Below, one piece after another: positions 13,444-58,536 of a DNA stretch of 64,000 bases. The notes under the pieces were generated by a model. That model was not told where the DNA came from and searched no databases. It saw only the letters and a program-made list of their open reading frames with translations. How positions within the stretch are numbered: position 1 is the stretch's first letter; each line of letters starts with the position of its first letter. The position numbers were made by a program, and so were the translations under genes. Origin of the DNA: Promethearchaeota archaeon (GTDB lineage Archaea; Asgardarchaeota; Lokiarchaeia; Sigynarchaeales; SOKP01); the NCBI GenBank assembly GCA_030668025.1, contig DAOUUT010000001.1:1-64000 (forward strand), read 5' to 3'.

Positions 13444-13719
13444 TTTACATGTTTTTTTACACTATTTAATTTATTAATTTTTATCAAAATGTTTTTTGTG
13501 TTTTTTCAGAAGGAAAAGTTTGTTATATTAGTATTTATAATTATAGAACGAAAAAACTTGTATTTAAATATTTATAATTATGTTTTTTTGGCACACAAAT
13601 TAACCCAAAAAAGTATTAATCGTGAAAGATTAATTTCAAATAATCTTTACATGAAATTTTCATGAAGATTTAAATACTATAATTTTAATTAAAAATATAA
13701 GAAAAAATTAAAATTTAAA
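13444..13719. promoter_or_regulatory. Left junction: kinase upstream region, att site and integrase-operon promoter
   Basis: 276 bp without a gene. The host part (to about 13638) should hold the kinase promoter on the minus strand. The element part starts at the att site. AAAGATTA (13625-13632) and TAATCTTT (13641-13648) form an inverted repeat around an 8-nt spacer. An archaeal TATA-like box ATTTAAATA lies at about 13667-13675, 45 bp before the regulator ATG. A near-palindrome ATGAAATTTTCAT at 13651-13663 could be an operator for the adjacent ribbon-helix-helix protein. Confidence 0.5.
13621..13638 (+). repeat. Left attachment site (attL core)
   Basis: CG followed by the 16-mer TGAAAGATTAATTTCA, which recurs exactly at 58519-58534. 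Here the left flank (CG) is chromosomal and the right flank (AATAAT) belongs to the element. Joining this left flank to the right flank of the other copy restores CGTGAAAGATTAATTTCACG, a perfect 7-bp inverted repeat around GATTAA. This architecture, with short inverted arms and a 6-bp spacer, is what a tyrosine recombinase uses. Confidence 0.75.
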
Positions 13720-14247
13720 ATGATAAAAATGGAAATAAAACAAAAGAAAGAAAAGAAGTACAGGTATAAATTTATTCAATTTTCAGTATCCGATGACTTA
13801 AAGAATGATATTGAAGAATGGACTGGAAAATCGTCTTTTAATACGATATCGGATTTTGTTCGTAATGCTGTAGTAGAGAAAATTAGAAATCTAAAAAACC
13901 CTAAATTAAACCAATCTAATCTTAAGGACTCTCAAATTAACGCTTCAATGTTAGAGCAATTAACAAAAAATACTCAAAAACTTATTTTATTACAGGAAAA
14001 AACTATCGACAGATCAAAGATTTTCGATGAAATGAAAGCTGATTTAGAAAGAATAAAGAAATTCTCAATAAAACAAGGCTTAGTTCAAGAATCTGAAATT
14101 ATCTATAATTTACTGAAAGCACATCAATCGCTATCCCAAAAACAAATAATCGAGAAAACAAATTTAGAGAAAGATACTATTTTTCAAATTCTTTCTACTG
14201 ATGATCGATTCAAATTAAATATAAAGGGGAGATTTTGCCTAAAATGA
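13720..14247 (+). CDS. Ribbon-helix-helix regulator with C-terminal winged-helix-like domain
   Basis: A 175-residue protein. Residues 15-55 (KFIQFSVSDDLKNDIEEWTG, then ISDFVRNAVVEKI) fit a ribbon-helix-helix fold; the middle is a predicted coiled coil; residues 125-175 (IIYNLLKAHQSLSQKQIIEK) fit a winged helix. Its stop overlaps the integrase ATG as ATGA (14244-14247), so the two are translationally coupled. It is probably the directionality factor and/or repressor of the integration module. An alternative internal start is ATG 13729. Confidence 0.8.
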   Translation: MIKMEIKQKKEKKYRYKFIQFSVSDDLKNDIEEWTGKSSFNTISDFVRNAVVEKIRNLKNPKLNQSNLKDSQINASMLEQLTKNTQKLILLQEKTIDRSKIFDEMKADLERIKKFSIKQGLVQESEIIYNLLKAHQSLSQKQIIEKTNLEKDTIFQILSTDDRFKLNIKGRFCLK

Positions 14248-15188
14248 GACCTTTAAACGAAGAGATTATACAAAATAATCTTAGCTTTTACAAACATTCA
14301 AAACAATCAATTAAAATGCGAATTTCGAGTTTAAAATACTTCTTTGACGAAAAATACTTTAATTATCAAGGGCATATCTTCGACATTAACATCCGAATTC
14401 TTAAGAAGTATTTTATTTACCTTAAAAATTTAAATACAATAAGCATTGAGACAAGAAAAAATAAATGGCATATCTTAACATCCTTCCTTAATTTTACTAT
14501 GGAAGACTATGAAGATTTCCATGTTGCGATACCGCGCAAAACAGTATCGTGGAACGGATATATTCCTAAAGAGAACGTGAAAACTAATAAAAATGTCATT
14601 GCTGAAAAAGAAGAAATAACCAAAATATTAAACCATTTTGAGGTAAATAACTTTAAACATTACCTTATCTTTAAAATCTTGGTTGAGACTGGAATGCGAA
14701 AAGGAGAACTAATAAACGCTAAATATACCGATGTTAATCTTAAATATAGACATATTTACATAAAGGAAGGAAAGACTGGTGAAAAAATATACAATTTCTC
14801 TAAAGATATGGGGAATAAGTTAAAACTTTATTTAAGCGAAAGAAAAACCCTCAAAGTTGATAATAAATACCTATTTCTCACTAAAACACTAAGAAAATAC
14901 GATAATAGATCGTTTAACCAAATACTCAAGGGAAATAAAGGAAAATATAAAGAATATCCTGGCGCTTTAGAAAAACTTGGAATTAGTAAAAATATTACTT
15001 GCAAAACTTTTAGAAGTACACTTAATACGTTGAGAAAAAAAGAAATGGGATGTTCAAATGAAGTCGCTAAATTATTACTGGGGCATAAAACTAACGATGT
15101 GAACATAAAGTCTTATACGAAATACGATTTAATCGATTTAATCGATTTATTTGATAAATATAACCCTTATCAAACCCTAAATATCTAA
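14244..15188 (+). CDS. Tyrosine recombinase/integrase (XerC/D-like)
   Basis: The N-terminal SAM-like helical domain (residues 1-115) is followed by the catalytic domain. The first Arg lies in VETGMRKGEL, the beta-hairpin Lys in EGKTGEKIY, the box II Arg in CKTFRSTLN (Lys replaces the usual His of HxxR), then LLLGHKTNDVN with the box II His/Trp-position His, and the nucleophile Tyr in IKSYTKYD. I chose ATG 14244 (ATGA overlap with the upstream stop, GGGGAG at 14227-14232) over in-frame TTG 14235, which sits too close to the ribosome site. It should catalyse recombination at the 13.62/58.52 kb att sites. Confidence 0.92.
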   Translation: MRPLNEEIIQNNLSFYKHSKQSIKMRISSLKYFFDEKYFNYQGHIFDINIRILKKYFIYLKNLNTISIETRKNKWHILTSFLNFTMEDYEDFHVAIPRKTVSWNGYIPKENVKTNKNVIAEKEEITKILNHFEVNNFKHYLIFKILVETGMRKGELINAKYTDVNLKYRHIYIKEGKTGEKIYNFSKDMGNKLKLYLSERKTLKVDNKYLFLTKTLRKYDNRSFNQILKGNKGKYKEYPGALEKLGISKNITCKTFRSTLNTLRKKEMGCSNEVAKLLLGHKTNDVNIKSYTKYDLIDLIDLFDKYNPYQTLNI

Positions 15189-15272
15189 TTTTTTAATTAT
15201 TTTTATAGGTCCAGGAAGAAATTATTGGTGCCACTAATTCTTTTTTTTCAATATAACCAAAAATGCGAAAAT

Positions 15273-15620
15273 TCAATCTACATCCATAATATCTAATCTT
15301 TTTTGAACTCGATTATAAGTTTTTAAAAAAGAATCGAGATTGGGTTTTATGTTAAGATAATAATCCGCCTCTGTGCGAAAAATTTTCATACTTTTCAAGT
15401 GATTACCTAAAATTGAATCATGGTTCATAATTGCCTCGATTAAATTTGTATGGAAATGCTCAGTATCAATGTGAGAAAGTTTTTTTATTAATCTAATGTG
15501 GTGCAATATCCCATAATAGATTCGTCCAATAGCAGTTCTATTTCTAACTTCAAGACTATAATTATTGTCATTAATTATGGTCTGCCCTAAAATAATAAAT
15601 TCTTTTGGGTCCAATATCAT
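15273..15620 (-). CDS. HEPN-domain protein (UPF0332-like)
   Basis: A 115-residue helical protein with the hallmark RNRTAIGRIYYGILHHIRLI, matching the R-x4-R/YYxxxHxxR helix of UPF0332-type HEPN domains, and the family's late RTEADY motif. HEPN proteins are often RNases in toxin-antitoxin and defence systems or partners of nucleotidyltransferases. Here no MNT partner is present; instead it is the last gene of a three-gene operon (ATGA overlap with 15617-16210). Its function as RNase or as structural subunit is inferred only. Confidence 0.7.
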   Translation of the reverse strand: MILDPKEFIILGQTIINDNNYSLEVRNRTAIGRIYYGILHHIRLIKKLSHIDTEHFHTNLIEAIMNHDSILGNHLKSMKIFRTEADYYLNIKPNLDSFLKTYNRVQKRLDIMDVD

Positions 15621-16210
15621 CCACTATATATTGATCTAAAAATAAAATATGTTCTTTTAAAAGTCGATAAAAACGAAGGAAATTCTTGTTTGATTAAATC
15701 TTCTTGTTCTTCAATAAATTTTTCTAATATATCTAAAATAAAATCAAAATCATCAATAGGAAATGCAATCTTTATTATTATACTTCTTATATCAGGATTC
15801 TCGATTTCAGCTTTATAATCGCAATTTCCATGAATATGATCAAAGTCATTTTTAATCATGAAATGCATGAAAAAACTCTTTAGCCATTGAAAGTAATATG
15901 AGAATTCAGAATTATGGTTTAAATAATTGTAAAAGTTTTTTGTAATGCTCATAGATTCAGCAAATTTGTCTTCAATGTAATTTTCCTTAAACTTTATAAA
16001 AAGAGATTTAGCATCGTAATTCTCCATAATATAATAAGCATCAAATATGGATTCCAATTTATTTTTATCTTCTGACCAAAACTTATCTAATTGGACCCCT
16101 CTTGACAAACAACGCTTAAAATGGGGTTCAAGAGCGTACATAATCCCTTCAGTTCTAAAAGAGTACATCCAATTTAAATCCTTTTCAATTATATTATAAT
16201 TACTAATCAT
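15617..16210 (-). CDS. Hypothetical protein in HEPN operon (197 aa)
   Basis: I do not recognise this protein. It is soluble, rich in aromatic residues (Tyr, Phe, Trp) and mostly helical. It overlaps the upstream gene by 8 bp and the downstream HEPN gene by 4 bp (ATGA), so the three are one translationally coupled operon. An aromatic-rich helical protein sandwiched between an unknown and a HEPN protein near an integrase suggests a cargo defence or toxin module, but no catalytic motif is visible. Confidence 0.65.
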   Translation of the reverse strand: MISNYNIIEKDLNWMYSFRTEGIMYALEPHFKRCLSRGVQLDKFWSEDKNKLESIFDAYYIMENYDAKSLFIKFKENYIEDKFAESMSITKNFYNYLNHNSEFSYYFQWLKSFFMHFMIKNDFDHIHGNCDYKAEIENPDIRSIIIKIAFPIDDFDFILDILEKFIEEQEDLIKQEFPSFLSTFKRTYFIFRSIYSG

Positions 16211-16625
16211 ATTTAATCTTTAAACGTCTTTTACTTATTACACGAGCTTGTTCTCTCTTCATCCATTCATACTGAAGTCTTTCACCGTGATAAATAATGA
16301 ATTTTAGCATTTCAAATATCTCGATTGATTTTTCACTATTTAATATCTCGGGCATATCAGATATAAACTCAATTAATTTAAATGTTCTTGATTTTAATTC
16401 CTCAACAAATATAACATCTGATTCGTCAATATATTCTTTAACTCTTATTAAAGAATTCCGATAAATATCAGAAAGTTCAGAAGAAAGAAAAACTAACGTG
16501 TCATTTCCAATTTCAATCCCATAATGACATAAATCCATAAAATAATCACCAGCTATCGGATATTCCTCTTTAGTAATATGGTCTTTAATCTTTTTTGATA
16601 TATTTTCAATATATAAATCGCTCAT
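16203..16625 (-). CDS. Hypothetical protein, first gene of HEPN operon
   Basis: A 140-residue helical, acidic protein with no recognised motif; the C-terminus is basic (KREQARVISKRRLKIKYD). I take ATG 16625 (MSDLY) because GGTGAG lies 4 nt upstream; an in-frame ATG 16637 is also possible. It overlaps the next gene by 8 bp. Fold and role are unknown; it may be the regulatory or antitoxin component of the HEPN module. Confidence 0.62.
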   Translation of the reverse strand: MSDLYIENISKKIKDHITKEEYPIAGDYFMDLCHYGIEIGNDTLVFLSSELSDIYRNSLIRVKEYIDESDVIFVEELKSRTFKLIEFISDMPEILNSEKSIEIFEMLKFIIYHGERLQYEWMKREQARVISKRRLKIKYD

Positions 16626-16637
16626 CTTTCTCACCAT

Positions 16638-16969
16638 TCTATTTTATTTAATAATTATTAAAAAGTCATTTTTTTTTGTTGCATGTCATTATGATTGTTA
16701 AGAATTAAAAAAATTATCTTTTTTTGTCGGTTATGATTTCAAACAACATCCTATTTAAGCATTGTATGATTGAAGAAATATCTAATTAAATAAACAGAAT
16801 TTAGATTAAAACTCATTTTTTTTCGATTTTCTCAAGAAGAAAAAAATACGGTACCAAAAAGTTCCAAATAAATAGAACTTTTATCTCAGGATCAATAAAC
16901 GAAAAAAACTTTTTTTTAATTTTTTATCCTGATCCTAAAGAAATTTTTTGTGGTGCCAAAAATTCAAGT
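16638..16969. other. Intergenic region between HEPN operon and HicA-like module
   Basis: 332 bp, no gene seen. It contains a spaced inverted repeat TCAGGAT (16886-16892)/ATCCTGA (16926-16932) flanked by A and T runs, and GGTACCAAAAA near 16851 loosely mirrored by TGGTGCCAAAAA near 16950. One of these may be the HEPN operon promoter/operator or the end of the upstream transcript. A similar TTGGTGCCA word occurs at 15228-15236, just after the integrase. Confidence 0.35.
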
Positions 16970-17278
16970 TCATAGTAAATCTAATGGATCTATTGTTCCT
17001 AAATGCTCTTTAACAAATTGTATATAATCGTGTCCATTATATCTACAATCATATATTCCTAAAAATTGGTCTTTAGTTATTTTAAGTTGCATTGCCATTT
17101 GCTCTATTAAATAATCATCAACTTTTCTACCATGATCTCCTCTACTAAAATGAGTTTTAAAAGGTGTTCTGCGTCCTTCATGTTTAAAGAATAATATTAT
17201 ATGACTTGGATTATTCTCAGTGGTAAACCCTTTTTTACAAAATTTCCCTATTAATTTTTCCCGATCATAAGTAGTCAT
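16970..17278 (-). CDS. HicA-like mRNA interferase toxin
   Basis: A 102-residue protein with a double-stranded-RNA-binding-like HicA fold: CKKGFTTENNPSHIILFF (the conserved Gly-Phe then His), RTPFKTHFSRG, and the tail QMAMQLKITKDQFLGIYDCR seen in larger archaeal and bacterial HicA-like families. HicA toxins cleave mRNA. Its start overlaps the upstream gene's 3' end by 14 bp, so the pair is coupled, the usual arrangement for toxin and antitoxin. Activity is inferred from the family. Confidence 0.62.
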   Translation of the reverse strand: MTTYDREKLIGKFCKKGFTTENNPSHIILFFKHEGRRTPFKTHFSRGDHGRKVDDYLIEQMAMQLKITKDQFLGIYDCRYNGHDYIQFVKEHLGTIDPLDLL

Positions 17279-18278
17279 TCAAATCTTTCTCCCATTTATC
17301 AAAATTAATTAAATCAATAAGCTTTTTCTTAATTTCTTTTGCACCCTGAGTTAATGGGTCTTTTGTAAAAATATAATACTCTAAATGAGTTATTAGACAA
17401 CCATACAGATTATTATACATTTCTTTAAATGTCTTTCCTGCGGCCACTATATTTAATTCTTCATTTATAACAAAGAACGCATTAGCTTTAAATTCTAAAG
17501 CTAAATTAAGATTTTCTTTAAATTCTAAATCTTTTAAATTATGTAATGAAATTGCATCCACTAATTCAAGTTTGCTAACATTTTCTAATCTATTTTTAAT
17601 AGGATCATATAAGCCACTAATTTTAATGATTTTTTTGTAATAACTTATATATCTTTCTTCTTCTACTTCAAGAAATTTATATTTTATCGAGATTCCATGA
17701 ATATCTCTTATTTTAAAATATATCTCGCCTTCACCATGTACTATAGTGAGTGCTCCAATAAACTCCTCCTCTCTTTTTATAACATCCAATTCTTTCCATT
17801 TACTTAAAGTTTTCCTATACTTTTTTTTAGCAACAAAAATTGTAGCAAATGTTTCTTTTCGTGATTTTCTCAATTGAATTGAAAATGAACCAGGATGTTT
17901 TGAGATAGATTGAAGATTGTTAAAAAGTCTATGTCTTCTTACATTATTTGTAATTATACCTTTTAGAGCCTTATAATTATCCCCATTTCGATCCTCATCT
18001 AATAATTTAGGTATTTCTAAAAGTTTTTCTACAACATTATCAATTAAAGAAGCTCCAAATGTGGGTGTTTGCGCTTGTGGTTTTAAAGAAAAAATCTGTG
18101 AACCTTCGCTTCTCTCTATTATTAACAATTGAAATTGTTCGCTTCCTGCTTTTGGATAAATTTCCTTTCCAATAAGTTCTATTGAATCTTGTATTTTTGA
18201 GGTATATTTAATAAAATCTTTGATAGAAACAAATCCCATCTTTAATAATGCTTTATCAAATACTAAATTTAGCTCCAT
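17265..18278 (-). CDS. Large partner of HicA-like toxin, putative antitoxin
   Basis: A 337-residue soluble protein upstream of and overlapping the HicA-like gene. Most of it is not recognised. The C-terminal 75 residues (LNIVAAGKTFKEMYNNLYGC, ending WEKDLNDYL) resemble a HicB-type antitoxin body. The N-terminal 260 residues are much larger than a normal antitoxin and contain many beta-strands and basic segments (FSIQLRKSRKETF). It may combine toxin neutralisation with sensing or DNA binding. Confidence 0.6.
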   Translation of the reverse strand: MELNLVFDKALLKMGFVSIKDFIKYTSKIQDSIELIGKEIYPKAGSEQFQLLIIERSEGSQIFSLKPQAQTPTFGASLIDNVVEKLLEIPKLLDEDRNGDNYKALKGIITNNVRRHRLFNNLQSISKHPGSFSIQLRKSRKETFATIFVAKKKYRKTLSKWKELDVIKREEEFIGALTIVHGEGEIYFKIRDIHGISIKYKFLEVEEERYISYYKKIIKISGLYDPIKNRLENVSKLELVDAISLHNLKDLEFKENLNLALEFKANAFFVINEELNIVAAGKTFKEMYNNLYGCLITHLEYYIFTKDPLTQGAKEIKKKLIDLINFDKWEKDLNDYL

Positions 18279-18458
18279 ATTTAAGAAAATGATAATTAAT
18301 TTATTTTATGATTTAATATCAAGATATTATTATCCTTCAGATTTATTAGTAAAGAGCTAATAAAATAAGTTATTTATAGTTTATTAGCATTATAAGTTTT
18401 ATTTAAATTTATTTTATTTTTAATCAAATTATTAGAGTATTGTTTCTATTTTATTTAC

Positions 18459-18623
18459 ATGAAAGTTAAAGATTTAATTGAAAAATTGCAAAAATGTGAG
18501 CTAGAAGCAGTAATCCAGTATAAACATGATTTAAACTCCAAAGAAGTATTTCTGGGAGCAGAAGTACATCAACTTACTGAGAATCGAGTAATAATGCTAA
18601 TCATAAAACCAGATGATTTCTAA
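18459..18623 (+). CDS. Small phage-type hypothetical protein (54 aa)
   Basis: ATG 18459 opens a 54-residue frame beginning MKVKDLIEKLQKCELEAVIQ and ending in TAA 18621-18623. This start and length resemble small phage/plasmid proteins of the MKVKDLIExL type whose role is unknown. It stands alone between the toxin module (divergent) and the convergent 18620-18811 gene, overlapping the latter's stop by 4 bp. Confidence 0.6.
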   Translation: MKVKDLIEKLQKCELEAVIQYKHDLNSKEVFLGAEVHQLTENRVIMLIIKPDDF

Positions 18624-18811
18624 TCTAATATCCTATTATTATTTCTTTCTTTTTTTTTTATTTTTCTCCTGACGCAATATATTTTTTCAGGATTTTCGCT
18701 ATTACCGTCTTTAGTCCCTATCAGCTCAAAGCCAAGTTTATTAAAAAATTCCTTTGCTATTAAAAATTCCTCAGCAATAACTATTGTGGTGCAGGTCTCC
18801 ATTGACATCAT
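18620..18811 (-). CDS. Small hypothetical protein (63 aa)
   Basis: Contains TIVIAEEFLIAKEFFNKLGFELIG followed by a basic tail (VRRKIKKKERNNNR). I do not recognise it. ATG 18811, 18808 and 18802 are all possible starts. The element-specific promoter motif (GACAAACATTTAAATA on the minus strand, 18851-18836) ends 24 nt upstream of ATG 18811, suggesting a leaderless transcript. Confidence 0.55.
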   Translation of the reverse strand: MMSMETCTTIVIAEEFLIAKEFFNKLGFELIGTKDGNSENPEKIYCVRRKIKKKERNNNRILD

Positions 18812-18835
18812 CAATTAAATTAAGGGATAAGTAAA

Positions 18836-18851
18836 TATTTAAATGTTTGTC
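18836..18851 (-). promoter_or_regulatory. Element promoter motif copy 1
   Basis: GACAAACATTTAAATA on the minus strand, one of four copies of a 16-bp motif with an archaeal TATA-like core (TTAAATA); it lies 24 nt before the small gene at 18811. Confidence 0.5.
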
Positions 18852-19013
18852 AAAAAATAGACAAAACCTATTGAAAAAGTTAAAATCTTGAACGATTTTT
18901 TGATGTTGGATACAATTTATCGTCAGTTTTTAATTTCCCAGTAAATATTATTTTCTTCTAATTTAGAAGCATCCAAAACAGTTTTTAATTGATTATAATA
19001 GTATTTGGATATA

Positions 19014-19029
19014 TACAAATATTTAAATA
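19014..19029 (+). promoter_or_regulatory. Element promoter motif copy 2
   Basis: TACAAATATTTAAATA, 22 nt before ATG 19052. It would drive the long plus-strand early gene run starting there; the spacing fits leaderless transcription. Confidence 0.55.
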
Positions 19030-19051
19030 TGAGAATTGTTTCTTCTTTATT

Positions 19052-19213
19052 ATGCCTGAATATAATTTTACAGAAGAAGAATTAAAAAACAACAAAGAAA
19101 GCATAATAAGCGCGGTAAAGCTTACAATCTTTAGTTATGAAGAAGAACGAGACAAAATAAACAAGGAATTAAAAAGGGCAAGAACCTACTTAAAGAAAAT
19201 AAAGGGGGCGTAA
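19052..19213 (+). CDS. Small hypothetical protein (53 aa), first gene of early run
   Basis: Begins MPEYNFTEEELKNNKESIIS and is a charged helical protein ending in KRARTYLKKIKGA, probably a coiled-coil hairpin. An upstream in-frame ATA-rich extension exists, but ATG 19052 lies 22 nt after the TATA-like motif and is the natural leaderless start. Function unknown. Confidence 0.6.
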   Translation: MPEYNFTEEELKNNKESIISAVKLTIFSYEEERDKINKELKRARTYLKKIKGA

Positions 19214-19219
19214 AAAAAA

Positions 19220-19501
19220 GTGGTAAAAAAAATGCTTGAAGGTCAAGGAAAAAGGTTGTTAATAGATTTTGCTGAATATCCTAATCCAAATTTTAAAGCT
19301 CTTACTTATTTAGCTGCCAGCAAAAAGGCTGAAACTTTATATTTAGTTCACCAAGACTCTGAAGGAGAGGAAGAGTGCTACGAATTAGCGACTTCAGCAG
19401 AAGAACTAACCGCAATTAGGGATCTTTTAATTAATGTGGTTAGTAAAATCGAAAAGAGTTACGGGTTAGAACAATCGGTTAAAATATTGGAGGGAAATTA
19501 A
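19220..19501 (+). CDS. Hypothetical protein (93 aa)
   Basis: Soluble alpha/beta protein (RLLIDFAEYPNPNFKALTYL, then TLYLVHQDSEGEEECYELAT). Not recognised. GTG 19220 follows GGGGGCG (19204-19210); ATG 19232 is an alternative. It lies 6 bp after the previous stop and 1 bp before the next ATG, within one transcription unit. Confidence 0.62.
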   Translation: MVKKMLEGQGKRLLIDFAEYPNPNFKALTYLAASKKAETLYLVHQDSEGEEECYELATSAEELTAIRDLLINVVSKIEKSYGLEQSVKILEGN

Positions 19502-19502
19502 A

Positions 19503-19670
19503 ATGTCTCATAAAACTGCGGAAGGAAAAAATTTATGTTCGGTTTGGTATTGTAAAAACGAAGGTGTCCACTACCATCATCGTGGCGGCTGCGGTATAGT
19601 GTTCTGCGACGAACACGAAGCCCAGGATAAAAATCCCAATGTCCCTATTGTTGAATTGGAGGGGGAATAG
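19503..19670 (+). CDS. Small zinc-binding-type protein (55 aa)
   Basis: ATG 19503 to TAG 19668-19670. Contains LCSVWYC, a VHYHH patch and CGIVFCDEH, so Cys and His residues could form a zinc site. Function unknown. It is the first of a large set of small Cys-pair proteins in this element. Confidence 0.6.
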   Translation: MSHKTAEGKNLCSVWYCKNEGVHYHHRGGCGIVFCDEHEAQDKNPNVPIVELEGE

Positions 19671-19675
19671 AAGAT

Positions 19676-21389: not shown

Positions 21390-21405
21390 ACGAGGTAATA
21401 CTAAT

Positions 21406-21717: not shown

Positions 21718-21746
21718 AATTAAAAAAAAGGAAGTGAGTGGATTAG

Positions 21747-50200: not shown

Positions 50201-52779
50201 ACTCCAGCTGTTCCAACACTAAAATGAATTCCTGAGTATTGTATATCATCTGTATCAATCGTATAATCATCTAACAAATAATCCATACCTTCTGTAGCAT
50301 ATTTTTCAAAAGAATCGTCTGAAACATCGCCTAAATTCCAATCATTTATACTAATATCATCGTGGAAATCCTCAATACCATTTATTTCGGAACCCTGTAA
50401 TATCCATCTCGTAGTTAATTCTGATTCGGAAATAGCATGAAAGTTAGGTACGGGATCTATAACTTCGAAAACAGTCCAATCTGTATATTGAATCGAACCA
50501 AGTATAATCCATCTATATCTATGAAGACCATTAACATCAAACGATTTCCAATGAATTAGATCCAACTTGTAAAAGATTTGAACGAACAAATAATCTATTT
50601 GTAGTTCAAAATTATCTAATAAATCTGAACCAACCCAATACAATTTAACTACTCCACTTGGACTAATAAAATCGTTTGGAGATTCTGTATTATATTCTTT
50701 TTTAGTAAACGATGTATCCGAAGAACTGCTAATTTGCACATACGATTCTGTATCGTAATTCCATATCTTGAATACTATTGTCTGAGATATATTTGTTTTT
50801 TGCCAACTTTCGAGATTCATAGCCAAAAGATCTTCGTTGTATCGATCAAAAGAAAAAGTTATGGTCATTTCCAACTCTGCTGGTTCGGTAAGATAATCTA
50901 ACCTCAATCGATCTATTAATAGATCAAAATCAATTAATAGCTTAGTAGCCTGAAATCGTATTCTTACTCCATTAGTTTCATTCACATAAGGACTTGCACT
51001 CCCTAATGTAAAAGAATCGTCATCAAAATTAGCAGAATTATCAACAGATTCAATTTCGTACCACGAAGTAGTATCCCAATTCCAAATGTCTAAATCTACA
51101 GTAATTGATATATTTGTTTTATGAGAATATTTAAAAAACTCAATTGAGCTAAAATCTGGATCGACCACTTGCATGTCTATTTGAACATTTAACTCTGCTG
51201 GTTCGGCGAGATAATCTATTCGCAATCGATCTATTAATAGTTCAAAATTTTCTACTACACTCAAAGCCTGAAATCGTATCCTTACTTGATTAGTCCCACT
51301 TACATAAGGACTTGCACTCCCTAATGTAAAAGAATCGTCATCAAAATTAGCAGAATTATCAACAGATTCAATTTCGTACCACGAAGTAGTGTCCCAATTC
51401 CAAATGTCTAAATCTACATCAATTGATATGTCTGTTTTGTGCGAATATTTGAAGTATTCAATCGAACTAAGATCTGGATCGTCCACGTGCATATCTATTT
51501 GAACATCTAACTCTGGATCTCCATCTTCATTATCCCCTACATTATATTCGGGATCCCAAGGATATATTCCAACAGCATCAAGATAACAATGATACCCTAA
51601 TTGATTAGTATCTGTTCTATAAAATAATTCGTCAACCGACGATTGATCATTACAAATATCTAATACTCCAGAACTTACACCATCTATTGTTATTATCTGT
51701 TTATACTGAGACAATCCTTCATATTCTCCATCAGTTAATTCAAAATCAACTCTCACATGATACCACGTATTACTTGCTGGTGCAGCAACATTTGGGATTA
51801 TTGTCCATATCCCTTGGTCTTTATATTGCCATTGACTATTAAATAAACCCATGTAAATAACTTCTACTACTCCATCATATAAAACTTCATAAAATTTATA
51901 AGTATGGGTATCAGTTCTCATCCAACTCTCTACAGTTCCATAACTAACTGTAGGATCAATAGCTCTTGATATTGTTGCGTAACCATAGCTAACATCATCA
52001 TAAAAGTCTAAAACTTTTTTATGTCCGTCTAAGTCATCAAGAAGAGTAACACGATAACCATCCCAATCTGCAAATCCATTTTCAAATGAATAAGTTCCAG
52101 CATAATGACCGATTTCTGAAGAATCAAGAACAGACCAATCAGCATCAATAGTTTCTAACTCTCCTATTGTATCACCAGTCCCTTTTGTAAATGTAAAATC
52201 GCTCCATTGAGATGGTGTTTCGTAGATGTATCCATCAGTATGAGAAGATGTAATTACAGACCAATCGGTATCAATCGTTTCTAACTCTCCTATCGTATCA
52301 CCAGATCCTTCCGTAAATGTAAAATCATCCCATTGAGATGGAGTTTCATAGATGTATCCATCGGTATGAGAAGATGTAAATGTCGTGTAAGAAGCATCAT
52401 TAGATTTCATATTGTTTGTTGAATCAGTTGTTCCACTAATCATATTAACATTGTTTGGATCTCCATATTGAGTTTCAGTATTATTTACAGGAGTGACAGT
52501 ATCGTTATTAACAACACCAGTCCAACTCGTAGTAGTATCGTTAAAATCTTCCGTCTGAAATTTGGCTCCTGTCCAGACATGGTCAAGATCTTCATCGTCG
52601 TAAAAATCGTTTAGTTCAAATGGATACGATTTCCCGTTAAATAAAGTGTTTGTAGCAGATGTTTCCAAATTTGTATCGTTATCAGAACTTAAAAATAAAT
52701 TGTTAAAAATGGAACTATAACTTAACAATAAAGCGAATACAATTAACAAACAAGTTATTTTTTTAAATGGCTTAATCAT
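47224..52779 (-). CDS. Giant repetitive surface protein, putative adhesin/spike (1851 aa)
   Basis: Signal peptide (ITCLLIVFALLLSYSS), a large extracellular region and a C-terminal membrane anchor (PVIWLMIVLIILGCGASIIL) with a basic tail. Repeats: a 41-residue unit twice near the N-terminus; a roughly 105-residue module twice almost identical (WNWDTTSWYEIESVDNSANF) plus a divergent third; and four to five propeller-like units of about 45 residues (WDGTHFWVIGS, YKYTYAGVYT). A laminin-G-like domain sits near residues 200-400. Residues about 1550-1700 look like a heptad coiled coil (stalk), rich in Asn-x-Ser/Thr sites. Overall a stalked adhesin or receptor-binding protein. Confidence 0.8.
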   Translation of the reverse strand: MIKPFKKITCLLIVFALLLSYSSIFNNLFLSSDNDTNLETSATNTLFNGKSYPFELNDFYDDEDLDHVWTGAKFQTEDFNDTTTSWTGVVNNDTVTPVNNTETQYGDPNNVNMISGTTDSTNNMKSNDASYTTFTSSHTDGYIYETPSQWDDFTFTEGSGDTIGELETIDTDWSVITSSHTDGYIYETPSQWSDFTFTKGTGDTIGELETIDADWSVLDSSEIGHYAGTYSFENGFADWDGYRVTLLDDLDGHKKVLDFYDDVSYGYATISRAIDPTVSYGTVESWMRTDTHTYKFYEVLYDGVVEVIYMGLFNSQWQYKDQGIWTIIPNVAAPASNTWYHVRVDFELTDGEYEGLSQYKQIITIDGVSSGVLDICNDQSSVDELFYRTDTNQLGYHCYLDAVGIYPWDPEYNVGDNEDGDPELDVQIDMHVDDPDLSSIEYFKYSHKTDISIDVDLDIWNWDTTSWYEIESVDNSANFDDDSFTLGSASPYVSGTNQVRIRFQALSVVENFELLIDRLRIDYLAEPAELNVQIDMQVVDPDFSSIEFFKYSHKTNISITVDLDIWNWDTTSWYEIESVDNSANFDDDSFTLGSASPYVNETNGVRIRFQATKLLIDFDLLIDRLRLDYLTEPAELEMTITFSFDRYNEDLLAMNLESWQKTNISQTIVFKIWNYDTESYVQISSSSDTSFTKKEYNTESPNDFISPSGVVKLYWVGSDLLDNFELQIDYLFVQIFYKLDLIHWKSFDVNGLHRYRWIILGSIQYTDWTVFEVIDPVPNFHAISESELTTRWILQGSEINGIEDFHDDISINDWNLGDVSDDSFEKYATEGMDYLLDDYTIDTDDIQYSGIHFSVGTAGVSKVVGIAWVGTHFWILDDATNEVYKYTSAGVYTGTHFDISSEIVAPNGLGWDGTHFWVIGSDEIAYKYTYAGVYTTTNFDISVQDNNPYGITWDGTHLWVVGEDTDEVYKYTDAGVYTGTHFDISSEIVAPRDIVWDGTHFWVTGSSFVYKYTSAGVYTGTYFDATTEDGRQYGITSDGTYLCMVGFNNAEVYKYEFKYDIEKKYFGSGYTYIQTNETELISLKSVDYGTPYILNSGDYFEIDFETSSDSQINLILLKNDVVNKTLLLSQSGNTNFNRHTVQISTEELIEFDQLKISSIFEDTDNIKIYDIKTYKYTITGDYKAFYVSPINQRDVYLSPDTYNLRIFDPFDGDVKVNVNITIESTDYYHVYLPIGIQECRLGLFSPDDIYLPIIDYHINISRSLNGEYDDFWLLYDVFSVDTETYIYIDVYDRFNTLIDSFTRFASDYIELELETYQLQIKNLMEQKTIIDINGSYVYPLLSGNTIEFMLATSYYQIGYYDSDNDHHQFMIYLDSNQAYELNRSKICFLSYADQQGNHLFFDNYKTYINGTMIYENIFYEDAGDDVNITITDRYDYQVYSGIYSVNLGDNYIAITLTLYTLKIMNQQEVFNWINITRDPNYYESEYYWSEWIAPNEIIEFNLFSGYYKINLTDYENLGSSYYSYTLNGDDILLIGSNYTLFNVIYNIENVNTTIGNQITNVVIDLTNQNSDINNTIINIEINLDSVNSSLDTLLINQNTQLDFISNNISNVFIWLDTNFTSLQNNINVSFLDLSTDVYLINDTIYTAVIGVEASLDIINTTISGNLSIAIQQNEFLTTLFQLTMFSDLLNWSTASYNSTFIEEQIDVWSFINDFRNTSVLIELKYEGVVDELLLSAQNMIDQYLPNEDVEYRLWSIEDEEYLSNWEALPDNKTVSFGFYSEAIPKTPDFNAPVIWLMIVLIILGCGASIILIGYIAYRYRKKSENYRRSYADKITLEAKTIKKFTQGTRIR

Positions 52780-53329
52780 ATATCTCTTTAACCTCTTCTA
52801 TTGTTTCTATTATTTTAATCTTTACATTATCTATGTAGAATTGGTTATCTTCGTTTAAATTATAAAAATGTTTTTTTATTAATATAAAAAATCCTAAAAA
52901 GGTTAAAAAAACAAATCCAGTTAATTCGGTTATTATCAACATATTGTTAGATAAAAGCAAACCCATAAAATAATCAATCCGACCAAAATTAATATTAAAA
53001 TTAAAAATAAAATTAATATCTGTTAACGGATAAAAGAATTCAGGTAATGGAAAGTCCATTACAATATGAATAGAAAATCCGATAACATAACTAAATGTTT
53101 TTATTTTTTCTTTTTTAATTAATTGTAAAATAATAAAGGTAATAATTAAAAATAAGCATGTATGAGCTACACCTCTTCCATACCATATATTAAAGAATTC
53201 AGCAGTTTTATCTATTGCGTCAGATATTACCGACCCAACAAGCAACCAAAATATATTATGTTTAACATTTAATTTTCTAAATGGAAATACAAAAAGAAGT
53301 GGAACCATTATATGAAACAATAAAAACAT
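52772..53329 (-). CDS. DUF457/YdjM-like membrane protein with fused C-terminal fragment (185 aa)
   Basis: Several membrane helices with LVGSVISDAIDKTAEFFNIW, GRGVAHTCLFL and HIVMDFPLPEFFYPL, which fits membrane-bound metal-dependent hydrolases of the DUF457 group (His/Asp positions kept). The last 24 residues (NQFYIDNVKIKIIETIEE) copy the end of the 53661-54401 protein (NLFYVDNVEIEVIETI), also at DNA level. ATG 53329 is chosen; TTG 53341 abuts the ribosome site. It overlaps the giant gene by 8 bp. Confidence 0.65.
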   Translation of the reverse strand: MFLLFHIMVPLLFVFPFRKLNVKHNIFWLLVGSVISDAIDKTAEFFNIWYGRGVAHTCLFLIITFIILQLIKKEKIKTFSYVIGFSIHIVMDFPLPEFFYPLTDINFIFNFNINFGRIDYFMGLLLSNNMLIITELTGFVFLTFLGFFILIKKHFYNLNEDNQFYIDNVKIKIIETIEEVKEIYD

Positions 53330-53337
53330 CTTATTTA

Positions 53338-53646
53338 TCAACTCCTTTTTGGTTTAATGTAATAAACATACGTTAAAACGCTAAGAACAAAAAAACAGGC
53401 AAATACTATGTAAAGAATTGTATCAAGCATTATTGCCTGATCAACACGATCAATCATATTAAAACCAAACCAATACACGCTTGTCATAGATCTGTCTATT
53501 TCTGTTTCTGTTAAATATAATCTAGCTAAATAGTTGTATTTATAAATCAGTTCAAAATACACATCTAATAAATGATGTGTGACCATTAATAACGGTATTA
53601 GGATTATTAAAGAAATAATTATACAATCTACTATTTTTGACGTCAT
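53338..53646 (-). CDS. Two-helix membrane protein (102 aa)
   Basis: Two membrane helices (IVDCIIISLIILIPLLMVTH and LDTILYIVFACFFVLSVLTY) with an outside loop between them. Not recognised. GAGGTTTTAAAA precedes ATG 53646. Small two-helix proteins like this could be structural in an enveloped particle. Confidence 0.6.
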   Translation of the reverse strand: MTSKIVDCIIISLIILIPLLMVTHHLLDVYFELIYKYNYLARLYLTETEIDRSMTSVYWFGFNMIDRVDQAIMLDTILYIVFACFFVLSVLTYVYYIKPKRS

Positions 53647-53660
53647 TTTTAAAACCTCTT

Positions 53661-54401
53661 TTATATCGTTTCTATAACCTCTATCTCTACATTGTCCACA
53701 TAGAACAAGTTATTCTCTACATAAGTAGAGAAATATAATTCACAGAAATAAGGCGGAACTTCGTAATGATTGAAATTATATCCTATACTCTCATCGTTTC
53801 CATCTATCCATAAATGCCAATCGTTAAGATTAAACTCTATCTTAAAGTGATACCACTTTTCTACAGAAAAACGACTTATTTTGGTCCAAATCCCATTGCC
53901 GTCTTTTATTTTGATGTCACTATCGGATCCACCTAAATGAATAATGATGTCGTCAACATAATCGTATTCTCCTGTAAGTTGAGTAATATCAATATTAACG
54001 ACTTCATCATATTCACAATAAATATCGAATTCTATGACTCCACGTGCTGCCTTTTTGAAACGAGCTGCTAATTCGACACCATCCCCATCTCTATTCTCTA
54101 CTTCTGCTACTTGTCCAAATGTTTCGTCTAATTCCCATACTATAACTTCTGTTCCATCCCAACTCGTTCCTCTCCAATCTACTGGATGTTCGCCAATTAC
54201 ATCGCTCTCGAAATCGTATACGACTTCAGAGGGATATGGTAATTCTGATATGGTGTTATCAACTCTATCCTGATAACAATAATAAACGGTCCCTGAAAAT
54301 ACGATTAATAACAAGAATAAAATTAAAAAATTCTTTCCTTTTCCTGTTTTTCTATTTTTAATCTGTCGATTCTGTCGCTTACTCTTCGCTTTATCGTTCA
54401 T
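53661..54401 (-). CDS. Membrane-anchored lectin/LamG-like surface protein with shared N-terminal tag (246 aa)
   Basis: Starts MNDKAKSKRQNRQIKNRKTG, then one membrane helix (FLILFLLLIVFSGTVYYCYQ) and a concanavalin-like jellyroll domain (VYDFESDVIGEHPVDW, WYHFKIEFNLNDWHLWIDG, FYVDNVEIEVIETI). Such domains bind sugars or proteins. Orientation is cytoplasmic tag, outside lectin. Similar LamG-like segments occur in the giant protein and in 54494-55150. Confidence 0.7.
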   Translation of the reverse strand: MNDKAKSKRQNRQIKNRKTGKGKNFLILFLLLIVFSGTVYYCYQDRVDNTISELPYPSEVVYDFESDVIGEHPVDWRGTSWDGTEVIVWELDETFGQVAEVENRDGDGVELAARFKKAARGVIEFDIYCEYDEVVNIDITQLTGEYDYVDDIIIHLGGSDSDIKIKDGNGIWTKISRFSVEKWYHFKIEFNLNDWHLWIDGNDESIGYNFNHYEVPPYFCELYFSTYVENNLFYVDNVEIEVIETI

Positions 54402-54493
54402 TATTATTATTACCTCTTTTTTGCTTTTTCTGGCTTAAAACTTCTTTTAAATTCAATTCCTCCAATCTTACTTAAAAAAAATAAAAAAAAGGT

Positions 54494-55150
54494 TTAGATT
54501 TTTTTTAAATTGTTAAGTTTCTCGAAGATTACGTCTATAACGTTCTTATTCGCGATGTCCGTATACATATGTATCGTATCAATTTCTTCGTTTGCGGGAA
54601 TAAACATTAAATCGTCTACAACCTCGTTTCCATCGGCTTTAATAGATATTTTTCCCTCTCCGCTAATACTCAAATCAAAAAATATTTCAATCGTGTGCCA
54701 ATTTGTATCCCAGTCAAGAACCTTCATTTGAAGCGTACCAATTATAAGAGCTAACGAATCACATATCCTTTCCAATTTGAATAACGCATATCCGTTTGAT
54801 AGAAACTCTATTGTAAAATCTTCCTGATAAATCTCGTTGGGCATTCTTAGTTTCAATTTTACATAGCCTATGTCAATCGAATTAAAGCTTAAACTCATCT
54901 CCGCGCGATTCCACGTACTGGTATCTACAACAGTTATATAATCGTCAACTACTACAATTGCCGTATAATACAGTTTAGTTACAGTATCCCATTGATTGAA
55001 CGAAACATCTACCGATTCTTCAATCTCCATATTAATAGGGGTAGAGGACTCCATTTCTGAACTAACATAAATCATGGCTAAGCCAGAAGCAGAAACGATC
55101 AATACGACCATTAAGAGCATTATGACTTTTTTTTTTTCCATTCTATTCAT
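54494..55150 (-). CDS. Membrane-anchored jellyroll-like surface protein (218 aa)
   Basis: Signal-anchor KKVIMLLMVVLIVSASGLAM near the N-terminus and a beta-rich outside domain with NTWHTIEIFF-like phrase DWDTNWHTIEIFFDLSIS, typical of LamG/concanavalin folds. Related in design to the neighbouring 53661-54401 protein. ATG 55150 taken as start (ATG 55141 also in frame). Function: probable surface or receptor-binding component. Confidence 0.62.
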   Translation of the reverse strand: MNRMEKKKVIMLLMVVLIVSASGLAMIYVSSEMESSTPINMEIEESVDVSFNQWDTVTKLYYTAIVVVDDYITVVDTSTWNRAEMSLSFNSIDIGYVKLKLRMPNEIYQEDFTIEFLSNGYALFKLERICDSLALIIGTLQMKVLDWDTNWHTIEIFFDLSISGEGKISIKADGNEVVDDLMFIPANEEIDTIHMYTDIANKNVIDVIFEKLNNLKKI

Positions 55151-55276
55151 CACTTTTTTGTTCTTTTATTTTTAATTGGTGTTTTTTGCTTTCAAGAAGG
55201 CTTTTTCTCGAAATTTACAAACGCTCTATACTTGTTTCATATTTTTTAAAAAAATAAAAAAAAAATAATTTAGAAT

Positions 55277-56734
55277 TTATTCTTTATTGGAAGCTGCTTT
55301 AATTACACGGGAGGCTATGGCGGCGGGTCCTCTGATCTGCATGTAGATGTAGATAATAGCTATTAGGATAACAATGATAACAACAATAGCGATAATAAAT
55401 GGCAAGGAATTGAGAAACGCCTCTAATAAATTGGACAACCCTCTATAAAGCATGATTTCAACGTCGGTCATTCCAGTCATATCCTCGTCCCAGATAAAGT
55501 CCCCTTCGTCAAAGATAGGATCGTCTAAGTCATCGCCTCCTTCATCAGAAGTCATCTCTCCGGAGGCGATAAAATTTACGCGAACTGTAAACGTCTGCTT
55601 ACAGAATTGATTTGTAACTTTAGTTGCAACGTTTCTGACATATTGATTTGTTAACGGGCCTTGAGGCACCCATACTCCTGCAGGACTGATAAAGGGGAAA
55701 TCGTGATAATCCCACGTAAGCTGTGCCCATCGAACACCAAGCGTTTGAGTATCGTACGTAATAGCCGGTCTAAGTCTTGCTGGTAGGTTGAAGTTAAATA
55801 CGTCCGAGGATCCTGAAGGACTCCAGGTCGTACCTTGTGGTTGCGCTATTAAGATCGATTGTCCGGTCGCACCTCCTAAAAACGTTTTGCCGTAAGAATA
55901 ATCTCCTAAAGTAACTCCAAGATTAAGATCCTCTATTTTTTGAGATACGTCCGCTTTGTCTGTTCCAGTCCCTAAGCTTGGGGCCACCGTATCCGGGTCA
56001 TATACGGTTACTGACCCTACATTTTCTGCGTTTCCTTGATATACGGTATCGTAATCCGTAAGAACGTTATATCTAACGCCTGAGACTACGACTTGCTTAA
56101 TTTCGGATTCTACGATTAAATTTTTAATCGTCTTCCCATTTATTACGATCTCCCGTCCTTCAAAGTCTTCTCTTATATCGAGATTGATTGGAATGTTGCC
56201 ATCGTAGTCGTGATATTTATACGAACTTTCGGGGCCAAAGTCGATGCTTCTATAGTTAATAATTGCCTTAATATCTGACCGATCCAGATAAGCAGGAGGA
56301 GGAAATATATTAATTGCCGAAAATTTTACAATATGAACGTACTCTACAGATTTCAAAGCTCCAAGATTAGATTGAGGAAACACGTCTTTAATTCCAACGG
56401 TCGTATACCAGTTTAGCGAAAACTCGAATTCAGCAGCGGCTCTATACGCTATAGTTGTATCGCTTTCGGATATCTTTCCCTCGTTAGTGAAACTTATTAA
56501 CTGTATCCCCCCCGAACTCATGCGAAATTGGCCGGTTCCATCGGAAGTATCTTTATCAACTAAAGGATTTGCCGTCACAGCTAACCAAGTACTATCAATG
56601 TTAACCGAATCCCATTGAAGAGTATCATCTGCTTTTACAGGTTGAACTGAATAACCTACGAAGAACAGATTAAAAGAGATTAAAACAATAAAGAAAAAAA
56701 AAAGATTTTTGGATTTTTTTCTGCTGAAACTCAT
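55277..56734 (-). CDS. Large signal-peptide surface protein with C-terminal anchor (485 aa)
   Basis: Signal peptide (FFFFIVLISFNLFFVGYSVQ, cleavage near VKA-D), a roughly 410-residue beta-rich outside region, an acidic segment (DEGGDDLDDPIFDEGDFIWD), then a membrane helix (LPFIIAIVVIIVILIAIIYI) and a basic tail. Not recognised. AGGTGATTTC precedes the ATG. The layout fits a major envelope or spike protein, or a conjugation-pore subunit. Confidence 0.62.
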   Translation of the reverse strand: MSFSRKKSKNLFFFFIVLISFNLFFVGYSVQPVKADDTLQWDSVNIDSTWLAVTANPLVDKDTSDGTGQFRMSSGGIQLISFTNEGKISESDTTIAYRAAAEFEFSLNWYTTVGIKDVFPQSNLGALKSVEYVHIVKFSAINIFPPPAYLDRSDIKAIINYRSIDFGPESSYKYHDYDGNIPINLDIREDFEGREIVINGKTIKNLIVESEIKQVVVSGVRYNVLTDYDTVYQGNAENVGSVTVYDPDTVAPSLGTGTDKADVSQKIEDLNLGVTLGDYSYGKTFLGGATGQSILIAQPQGTTWSPSGSSDVFNFNLPARLRPAITYDTQTLGVRWAQLTWDYHDFPFISPAGVWVPQGPLTNQYVRNVATKVTNQFCKQTFTVRVNFIASGEMTSDEGGDDLDDPIFDEGDFIWDEDMTGMTDVEIMLYRGLSNLLEAFLNSLPFIIAIVVIIVILIAIIYIYMQIRGPAAIASRVIKAASNKE

Positions 56735-56746
56735 CAGAAATCACCT

Positions 56747-57823
56747 CTAAGCTTCCATTGAACTAAAAGTCTGCGAAACCGTTACTGAGTCCTCGTCTGT
56801 TGGAATATTTACGCGCACCGATTTAATATCGTTAAGTCCAATTGCCGATCCAAACGAAAATTCTGCGTTATATTTTCCAGGACCGTTTTCTAAGTTAAAA
56901 GATTCCGTTGCAATTAAGAAAATAGACGTACCTGAAACTACTTTTTCGAATGCAAAAGCGTCATCACCAGAAATGGTCATGTTCACTTGATAGGCGCTAC
57001 CGTCAGTTGCATTAAGCGTATAATTGAACACATATTCAAATGCGAACGCGTTTGTACCGCGTTCTAAGGGGTCCTCGTAATCGTGATCTTGGTCGTTTTC
57101 AATGTTATAGATGAATGGTTGACTTCTCCAGTCTGGCTCGTAGTAATACTCCTCTTGTTTCGATTGAGATAACTCCGCAAAATCGGACACGGACATTTTC
57201 CATTCAGGTCCATAATGGGCATCAGCCTGAGTGAAACCTGGAAAGTTAAAGAAGTGAGTATAATTCCCATTTGTAGAGAAATTTACTAATGTAATAGAAC
57301 TCATAGCATCGTTAATCATAATGTGATTAACATCGGAACTCATATGAAAAGCATCGATGAGATAAGGACCATTTGTTGCAGGTAAAATTAGATCGTAGGA
57401 TTCAAAGACGGTTTCACCGCTAGGATCGACGCGAATAAGAACGTAAGGAACGTCCGAAAGGTCGATCGTAATGTCGTCTGCGTCTCCTGATTTTTGCTTA
57501 ACCCAATTGGTAATATCAGTCAATTCTTCGTATATATATCCTGTTTCTGTGAATTCGTCGGGATCAGGAGTATAGATTTCTAACGGGATGTTTGGAGAAA
57601 CGAGTTCTTCGTCTGGCCATGCGTTAACTATAAAAGTTGCGGTAGATGCGGTAGGTGCCGGAGCCTGGGCTTGAGCTGTAACGTACCCATAAACCATAAA
57701 TCCAACGCCTCCCACAGCACATATAATGGCAATAACGCCGATAACAATGAAGATTTTAAGCTTTGGCGATACTTGACTAATTTTTTTCGCTTGTCTTCCA
57801 CTTTTTACGTTGTTTTTTGACAA
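56747..57823 (-). CDS. Anchored surface protein with shared N-terminal tag, first gene of late block (358 aa)
   Basis: Starts MSKNNVKSGRQAKKISQVSP (relaxed form of the tag), one membrane helix (IFIVIGVIAIICAVGGVGFM) and a roughly 300-residue beta-rich outside domain. TTG 57823 follows GGTGA by 9 nt. It is the promoter-proximal gene of the whole minus-strand cassette, so likely the most highly expressed; an abundant structural protein is a reasonable guess. Confidence 0.62.
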   Translation of the reverse strand: MSKNNVKSGRQAKKISQVSPKLKIFIVIGVIAIICAVGGVGFMVYGYVTAQAQAPAPTASTATFIVNAWPDEELVSPNIPLEIYTPDPDEFTETGYIYEELTDITNWVKQKSGDADDITIDLSDVPYVLIRVDPSGETVFESYDLILPATNGPYLIDAFHMSSDVNHIMINDAMSSITLVNFSTNGNYTHFFNFPGFTQADAHYGPEWKMSVSDFAELSQSKQEEYYYEPDWRSQPFIYNIENDQDHDYEDPLERGTNAFAFEYVFNYTLNATDGSAYQVNMTISGDDAFAFEKVVSGTSIFLIATESFNLENGPGKYNAEFSFGSAIGLNDIKSVRVNIPTDEDSVTVSQTFSSMEA

Positions 57824-57911
57824 ATTTTTGATTCACCTTTTATTTTTAATAGGTTTTTTAAGTTTTATTTAAATGATTTTTAAATAATAATGGGAATGGA
57901 ACTTATTTAAA

Positions 57912-58015
57912 TTATGCGTCTCTCGCATAAAAAAATATATATTATTTATTAAAGGAATAATATGATTTACGATTATTTTTCAATTTGAAATTATGCGCGA
58001 TAAAAATATTATCGC
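57912..58015. repeat. Two hairpins upstream of the late block
   Basis: TTATGCG (57912-57918)/CGCATAA (57924-57930) with a 5-nt loop, and GCGATAA (57997-58003)/TTATCGC (58009-58015), the latter extended by TTGAA and TTCAA flanks. Both contain ATTATGCG on the left side, so they may be two operators for one regulator. Confidence 0.5.
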
Positions 58016-58127
58016 TTCAAAAAAAGGTTAAAAAATAGGGTTTTTTAATATGTTAATTAAGAATTTAAATATCTTTCTCTCGGATATTTATTAATTATTA
58101 TATTCCTTAAACGCATATTTTATTAAT

Positions 58128-58220
58128 TTATATAACAATATATTATGTGAAGCCTCATTGGAGTTTGGCCATAATTTATTCCTCCACGAATAAAAAAAAA
58201 CTCCAGGGGCTTTTTTTTTT
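58128..58220 (+). ncRNA. Candidate small structured RNA or terminator hairpin
   Basis: A TATA-like TTTATATA (about 58128-58135) is followed about 25 nt later by a long hairpin: AAGCC (58150-58154)/GGCTT (58208-58212) plus TGGAGTTT (58159-58166)/AAACTCCA (58198-58205), separated by a small internal loop, and then a run of T (58211-58220). Promoter-hairpin-T tract is what a short independent RNA would show. It lies in the last 400 bp of the element. Expression is not known. Confidence 0.5.
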
Positions 58221-58518
58221 CTTAAAACTGCGAGAAGATCAATTAAAAAACAATGATTATACAACAATTATTTTTTAATAAGTTTCGGTTATTTTTTAAC
58301 TAATATTTAAGCATAACACAATTCTATTAAAACTTGAAGCCAAAACACAAATAAGCCTAATTTAATGATCGTTTTCGGAGAAATATTAAAAAAATTGATT
58401 TTACCGAAATATTTTGTTCCCCTTGGAAATTGAGGATTTGCACTTTTCATTTTTTACAAAAGTGTTAAGCGAAAATCTCTTTCATGAAAAAATTTAGTTT
58501 TCTCATGAAAAAAAGAAT

Positions 58519-58536
58519 TGAAAGATTAATTTCACG
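58519..58536 (+). repeat. Right attachment site (attR core)
   Basis: The 16-mer TGAAAGATTAATTTCA followed by CG. The left flank (AGAAT) is element, the right flank (CGGTG) is chromosome. Element flanks of both copies joined give TTGAAAGATTAATTTCAA, a 6-bp inverted repeat around the same GATTAA spacer (attP). Confidence 0.75.

Follow-up and report, generated by a model that had tools for sequence, protein, structure and literature searches.

Where exactly a mobile element begins and ends, and how it comes to occupy one particular intergenic position, are the questions raised by a 64,000-nt stretch of a Promethearchaeota archaeon genome of the Lokiarchaeia (GCA_030668025.1, contig DAOUUT010000001.1, positions 1 to 64,000), which in its entirety is called the window here. 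The original prediction, made from the letters alone, described an integrated element of 44.9 kb delimited by two copies of the 16-mer TGAAAGATTAATTTCA, and this repeat is indeed present, exact, at 13623-13638 and 58519-58534. It had also been cautioned that a 16-mer match might be due to chance, and with good reason: direct 16-mer repeats separated by more than 5 kb occur in the window at 15 distinct offsets, compared with 1-7 in 10 simulated sequences. In a window so rich in such repeats, the 16-mer alone was rejected as proof of the ends. The prediction went further and reconstructed two palindromes, and both are obtained as foreseen: joining host flank to host flank gives CGTGAAAGATTAATTTCACG, and joining element flank to element flank gives TTGAAAGATTAATTTCAA.

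Relatives of the locus were collected by means of the geranylgeranyl reductase family gene in the right host flank. This search gave 12 loci (L001-L012), ten of which are titled Lokiarchaeota or Lokiarchaeia. Five Lokiarchaeia loci (L001, L002, L004, L006, and L010) are devoid of the element and contain the predicted 20-bp empty site CGTGAAAGATTAATTTCACG letter by letter. In all of these except L006, the alignment runs to 13638 of the window and sets in again at 58519, with an overlap of 16 bp; the L006 contig begins 109 bp ahead of the site and shows a short left match (13510-13575) and a right match from 58519. Because the locus lacks the element in five relatives and shows precisely this palindrome where the flanks meet, the ends of the element are exact and its length is 44,896 bp. 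L003 has the same arms with the spacer CATAAA instead of GATTAA. L005 reads CGTGAAA-GATTAA-TTTCACa, a site that deviates in one outer base and is followed by additional sequence, and 1.3 kb further on aGTGAAA-CATAAA-TTTCACG; it holds two sites (L005:2436-2455 and L005:3749-3768), each with one outer base altered, where relatives hold one. In L007-L009 nothing but the reductase gene aligns to the window; L011-L012, both distant matches from bacteria, do not align to it.

The two copies had been interpreted as the attachment sites (att) attL and attR of a nearby tyrosine recombinase. This interpretation is supported, since relatives join the flanks at exactly the predicted 20 bp and the same arms mark the ends of other elements whose integrases are homologous. 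The integrase gene begins 597 bp inward of the left copy. The insertion site is intergenic and outside tRNA genes, as claimed: ARAGORN reports no tRNA in the window, and Rfam gives a single one elsewhere, at 8327-8427. Spanning 101 bp and perhaps containing an intron, this tRNA was missed by ARAGORN under the bacterial code. An integrase with its catalytic residues, terminal direct repeats, and an empty site in relatives together characterize a tyrosine-recombinase integrative element. The catalytic residues R, K, xxR, H, and Y are present, the first His of HxxR being replaced by Lys according to the alignment; the window integrase reads CKTFR where aligned homologues read CHTFR and the like. 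Against NF040815 the protein reaches 9.6e-21, yet remains under the cut-off of that model. In every point that can be checked, the claim of an integrated element is correct.

The site itself had been suggested to be a conserved chromosomal site, and it proves to be one member of a family, CGTGAAA-N6-TTTCACG, with variable spacers of 6 bp. Nine of the ten relatives' genomes carry such sites (up to 13 per genome, 73 in total), with none for a reversed-pattern control. Across the 227 genomes of the phylum of G001, sites are present in 81 genomes, 54 of which have at least four; the per-genome counts listed sum up to 457, compared with three for the reversed pattern. A single 3.34-Mb contig of G129 carries eight.

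Matches to the window integrase (E 1e-5) were found at 36 places in 25 of the 227 genomes, and none among viral contigs or phage records. In 6 of 18 integrase loci examined (G115, G001, G004, G002, G123, and G161), an att half-site of the family lies 587-971 bp from the integrase, and two of these elements show both ends. The element of G115 (C6, 25719-43372) measures 17.6 kb, has the spacer GAGATG, and is probably a tailed provirus, as judged from a match to terminase (3.6e-14) and a weak one to capsid (4.9e-4). The element of G001 (C82, 115370-125505) measures 10.1 kb and has the spacer CCACTC; its attL and attR have only AA-N6-TT in common, which points to the spacer as the place of exchange. 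The element is unmatched in six relatives' loci where the CCACTC site is intact. In G002 and G008 the right flank adjoins the site without a gap (97-98%), and the left flank stops 38-50 bp from the site, in G001 as well as in G003 or G005 (77-80%). In all three elements with both ends known (window, G115, and G001), the spacer is the same at both ends, and for the window and G001 elements it equals that of the relatives' intact site.

Further pairs of integrase and site are represented by single ends or remnants. G004 contains a 4.4-kb element remnant at a TCCCGA site, and the relatives' intact TCCCGA site sits beside a flank homologous to this end. The element end of G002 lies at a CTGAAC site, and its host flank matches relatives with an intact CTGAAC site; single ends in G123 and G161 have the spacers CAATGG and TAGCAA, respectively. 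The ends of G002 and G004 are 92% identical over 1312 bp, with integrases 88% identical, and differ in their spacers. The arms of the attP core vary by element, being TTGAAA/TTTCAA in the window and GAATAA on the known side of G002 and G004, and those of attB are constant. A gene pair comparable to that of the window, encoding a ribbon-helix-helix (RHH)-like protein and the integrase, stands beside att in the elements of G001, G115, and G123; the RHH-like protein of the window has no match in Pfam, NCBIfam, or PHROG. Short repeated motifs close to the ends, TTCATGAA in the window and CATAACATTTATATG and CATATCAAATATATGA in other elements, look like arm-type sites. Four of the seven window copies of TTTCATGA lie at most 40 bp from one or the other att site, and a further TCATGAA is present near the right end, at 58503-58509.

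The spacers are diverse between sites and well preserved at each of them. The arms are near-exact, and 90 distinct spacers occur in 24 genomes. The spacers have a G+C content of 55% in surroundings of 27%; for the inner four positions the values are 48% and 27%, and A is nearly excluded from position 1. Among 76 pairs of sites with homologous flanks in different genomes, which are not independent (they comprise 15 spacers, and one G003 site is counted twice), the spacers are identical in 62, one base apart in four, and two bases apart in ten, while the mean flank identity of 88% would lead to identical spacers in approximately 48%. Within genomes, spacer pairs with one mismatch are rarer than expected (1 versus 7.1, P 0.006). 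A first test of spacer dispersion was dropped, as its null model ignored orthology, and replaced by this new test.

We regard it as probable that the element is a provirus or an integrative plasmid residing in one of the dispersed attB sites with constant arms, that one integrase family reads these arms, and that the address consists of the 6 bp of the spacer, which attP and attB have in common. The element's own XerA-like tyrosine recombinase would insert it into the intergenic attB CGTGAAA-GATTAA-TTTCACG, one of the dispersed chromosomal sites with constant inverted arms of 7 bp and a site-specific spacer. A single integrase family, together with its RHH-like partner and carried by elements of differing kinds, would recognize the constant arms. 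The spacer would be the region of strand exchange, where attP and attB would have to match, and would thereby direct each element to one site. The exact ends, the empty sites, the site family, and several integrase-site pairs with matching spacers are established; presumed from sequence comparison are the protein-DNA contacts, the positions of cleavage, the requirement for identical spacers, excision, and whatever benefit the host may draw.

A wider proposal is possible rather than probable. The Lokiarchaeia may share a clade-wide set of orthogonal landing pads, up to about a dozen per genome, with common arms and each with a 6-bp barcode of its own that is kept more constant than the surroundings. 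Tailed proviruses, the 45-kb element rich in membrane proteins, and small elements would then share a portable RHH-integrase module and be addressed by the spacer alone, and the pads may be kept up by the host, either as safe intergenic places of entry or because they serve the host itself.

Several results weigh against an integrase family that reads constant arms and is addressed by the spacer. Ten of 12 tested pairs of equal spacers, from distant genomes, are located at loci without detectable homology, and the corresponding comparison for equal spacers at four half-sites was nearly negative as well; since identical spacers recur at non-homologous loci, either the sites move or the flanks turn over. 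The avoidance of similar spacers within genomes is supported only in part, as three genomes contain one spacer twice (0.4 expected) and the combined P is 0.13. The other 12 of the 18 integrase loci lack a recognizable half-site, several of the contigs being too short to tell, and the integrase subfamily of G121, G117, G155, and G156 shows no att half of the family and probably uses other targets. No single relative joins both flanks of the G001 element, because G002, G004, and G006 have approximately 1.1 kb of other sequence left of the CCACTC site. In G004 the left half of the site is damaged, and the shared flank resumes 1.5 kb right of the other half-site. A phylum-wide search for TCGTGAAA-N6-TTATTC halves gave 27 matches compared with 10 in the control, so that many of them may be due to chance; they were used only if an integrase adjoins, or if the spacer and the end motif are known from other sites. 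The 22-mer of the predicted circular junction (attP) has no match in the viral contigs searched. Finally, no integrase match was found near 114 site loci, which leaves the persistence of mostly empty sites unexplained.

These 114 loci at the same time speak for an alternative in which a host protein, a regulator or a chromosome-organizing factor, binds to the palindromes. The arms alone would then matter to the host, the integrases would have adopted them, and the spacers would be incidental. The many copies across part of the phylum and the conservation of the arms fit this idea, as does their location, 87 of 95 sites (orthologous sites counted separately) lying outside predicted open reading frames (ORFs). 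However, the neighbouring genes are convergent at 30 sites, tandem at 44, and divergent at 13, which is a preference for convergent over divergent gaps. Degenerate copies are few: a scan of three genomes with up to two mismatches gave 26 exact sites, six with one mismatch (including attL of the G115 element), and 39 with two (including its attR), compared with 37 in total for the control. Moreover, the spacers are rich in G+C and better conserved than the flanks. All these points are compatible with some host role for the arms, and we judge the explanation as a whole unlikely.

Alternatively, the sites could be dif-like and serve the host's own Xer recombinase, forming a dispersed archaeal analogue of the Acinetobacter dif modules that is exploited by elements. 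Inverted arms around a 6-bp spacer, as in dif, and a XerA-like integrase are in line with this, and so are the attP arms GAATAA/TTATTC, which we take to resemble dif arms. Yet the integrase belongs to the elements themselves and lies 0.6-1 kb from att. Moreover, archaeal dif is a single-copy site with a 6-nt spacer (PMC8371274), in contrast to the several sites per genome found here. XerA/dif of archaea is comparable in its XerA-like protein, inverted arms, and 6-bp spacer, but has one dif per chromosome for dimer resolution (PMC8371274), as opposed to eight sites on the G129 contig. The dif/pdif modules of Acinetobacter are the nearest analogue, with inverted arms, a varying 6-bp centre, and many copies per genome (PMC12907356; see also PMC13141974). 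They are acted upon by XerCD (PMC12907356), whereas here it is the integrase of the elements that stands next to att, in six loci and the window, and most of our sites are isolated, without an integrase match nearby. Overall, we consider a dif-like role improbable.

A provirus of the usual kind in an unremarkable intergenic attB, with all remaining palindromes unrelated, would account fully for the element and its empty site. It is very improbable, as the loci of G115, G001, G004, and G002 contradict it: homologous integrases adjoin the same arms with other spacers, relatives have intact sites with the same spacer, and the reversed-pattern control is near zero. In conjugative transposons such as CTnDOT and Tn916, a variable centre of 6-7 bp lies at the crossover, and the centres of donor and target differ. 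A system of this kind, where the element carries along coupling sequences that do not match, would explain a variable 6-bp centre between constant arms, but it is scarcely credible here, where the centres match and the window, G115, and G001 elements already contradict it by the spacer identities described above.

Among archaeal integrative elements with tyrosine recombinases, tRNA genes are the main targets and some sites are intergenic (PMC8371274). The elements described here resemble them in the integrase gene beside att, the short direct repeat at both ends, and the inverted arms around a short overlap, and differ from these mainly tRNA-directed elements by dispersed intergenic sites with constant arms and variable spacers that are used by different elements. 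Aloposons and HeimV1 of the Heimdallarchaeia, likewise integrated elements of Asgard archaea, integrate at tRNA genes (PMC8813620); the aloposons have twin giant genes in addition, in contrast to the intergenic site and the single largest ORF of 1851 aa in the window. A literature search by title and beginning of abstract found no description of such sites in Asgard archaea, subscription papers being largely outside this search and the absence thus unproven. Beyond the confirmed ends, the main value of the locus is a site family whose arms and spacer look separable, that is, recognition by arms and protein on the one hand and addressing by the spacer on the other, in site-specific integration of the archaea held to be closest to eukaryotes. 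This offers a testable rule for the entry points of mobile DNA in Lokiarchaeal chromosomes, an exact delimitation of integrated elements in fragmented metagenome genomes, and possibly a collection of recombination sites, orthogonal to one another, for a single family of enzymes. A question that follows is why intergenic palindromes of 20 bp stay exact amid diverging DNA.

Table 1. Features of the integrated element and its host flanks (positions in the window; aa, amino acids).
Feature	Position	Strand	Evidence or remark
PAS/histidine kinase gene, left host flank	10036..13443	-	family match
attL	13621..13638	+	CGTGAAA-GATTAA-TTTCA(A): host arm CGTGAAA, 6-bp spacer GATTAA, element arm TTTCAA; empty site in 5 relatives
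Integrated element	13623..58518	none	44,896 bp; absent from syntenic loci of 5 relatives
TTCATGAA, putative arm-type site inside left end	13659..13666	none	motif count; presumed function
175-aa protein, RHH-like by eye	13720..14247	+	overlaps integrase gene
Tyrosine recombinase (integrase), 317 aa, XerA-like	14235..15188	+	Pfam PF00589 1.5e-16; phrog_1; PDB 5hxy XerA 1.3e-9
475-aa protein, phage topoisomerase family (phrog_6247)	19810..21237	+	PHROG match
Bro-N/anti-repressor-like protein	25389..26195	+	family matches
Exonuclease, RNase_T family	30377..31090	+	phrog_192 DNA polymerase exonuclease subunit
Small Cys-rich protein	31376..31747	+	near-identical by eye to gene of G004 remnant (TCCCGA site)
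1141-aa protein, P-loop by eye	34420..37845	+	C-terminus matches end of MCM model, under cut-off; presumed replication role
532-aa P-loop protein (by eye)	40656..42254	-	43 matches including itself in environmental sequence
CAAX-type (Rce1-like) membrane protease	46472..47209	-	family match
1851-aa predicted secreted, membrane-anchored surface protein (by eye)	47224..52779	-	largest ORF, single
485-aa mostly beta protein, signal and C-terminal membrane helix	55277..56734	-	predicted model, pLDDT (predicted local distance difference test) 69
TTCATGAA, putative arm-type site inside right end	58481..58488	none	motif count; presumed function
attR	58517..58536	+	(AT)TGAAA-GATTAA-TTTCACG: element arm TTGAAA, spacer GATTAA again, host arm TTTCACG; empty site in 5 relatives
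Weakly gelsolin-like 102-aa protein, right host flank	58640..58948	-	under Pfam cut-off
Geranylgeranyl reductase family gene, right host flank	59180..60367	+	query for relatives

The gene content of the 44.9-kb element (Table 1) is divided, the left half comprising genes for replication and regulation and the right half those for membrane and secreted proteins. Its G+C content is 30.7%, compared with 32.4% in the host flanks within the window, where a Ras-family GTPase, an MtrH-like protein, a PAS histidine kinase, a weakly gelsolin-like protein, and a geranylgeranyl reductase family protein are encoded. No capsid or terminase match was obtained in a PHROG scan of 30 of the 56 listed element ORFs (at least 80 aa), and no capsid or packaging gene was found among 29 element ORFs searched against Pfam, in contrast to the G115 element, which has such matches. 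Both a membrane-enveloped virus and an integrative plasmid are possible. The 1851-aa protein has no family match, and a fold search with the model of the 485-aa protein gave no match at E 0.001. Relatives of the 532-aa P-loop protein and the 1141-aa protein are absent from the viral contigs searched; two of the 43 environmental matches of the former are named as proteins of Asgard metagenome-assembled genomes.

Some minor observations concern the sites themselves. In G005, G006, and G010, 13 of the 73 listed sites lie within approximately 120 bp of a contig end (nine physical sites, with four pairs representing overlapping contig ends), which suggests insertion polymorphism in the sampled populations. 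In G117 (C21:111597-113145, L154), a full site is followed by an integrase fragment, spaced roughly as is usual for the RHH-integrase pair, which looks like the decayed remains of an element with full arms; full sites near integrase fragments are also present in G152 (C146), G111 (C106), and G109 (C248). Two TCGTGAAA-TCAAGA-TTATTC matches in G133 (C280:3558 and 7155; L226 and L238) are 3.6 kb apart in repeated sequence and may be a repeat rather than att. A search of viral contigs for TCGTGAAA-N6-TTTCACGA yielded 15 contigs (L239-L253), of which 13 contain a phage palindrome without the integrase. This palindrome is longer, GTCGTGAAA-N6-TTTCACGAC, with a varying spacer (e.g., L252:7872), and may serve bacterial phages for packaging or recombination. 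A gene for the terminase large subunit is located near it in all four contigs scanned for this gene (L242, L243, L252, and L253), and in L252 the small subunit gene lies on the opposite side of the palindrome.

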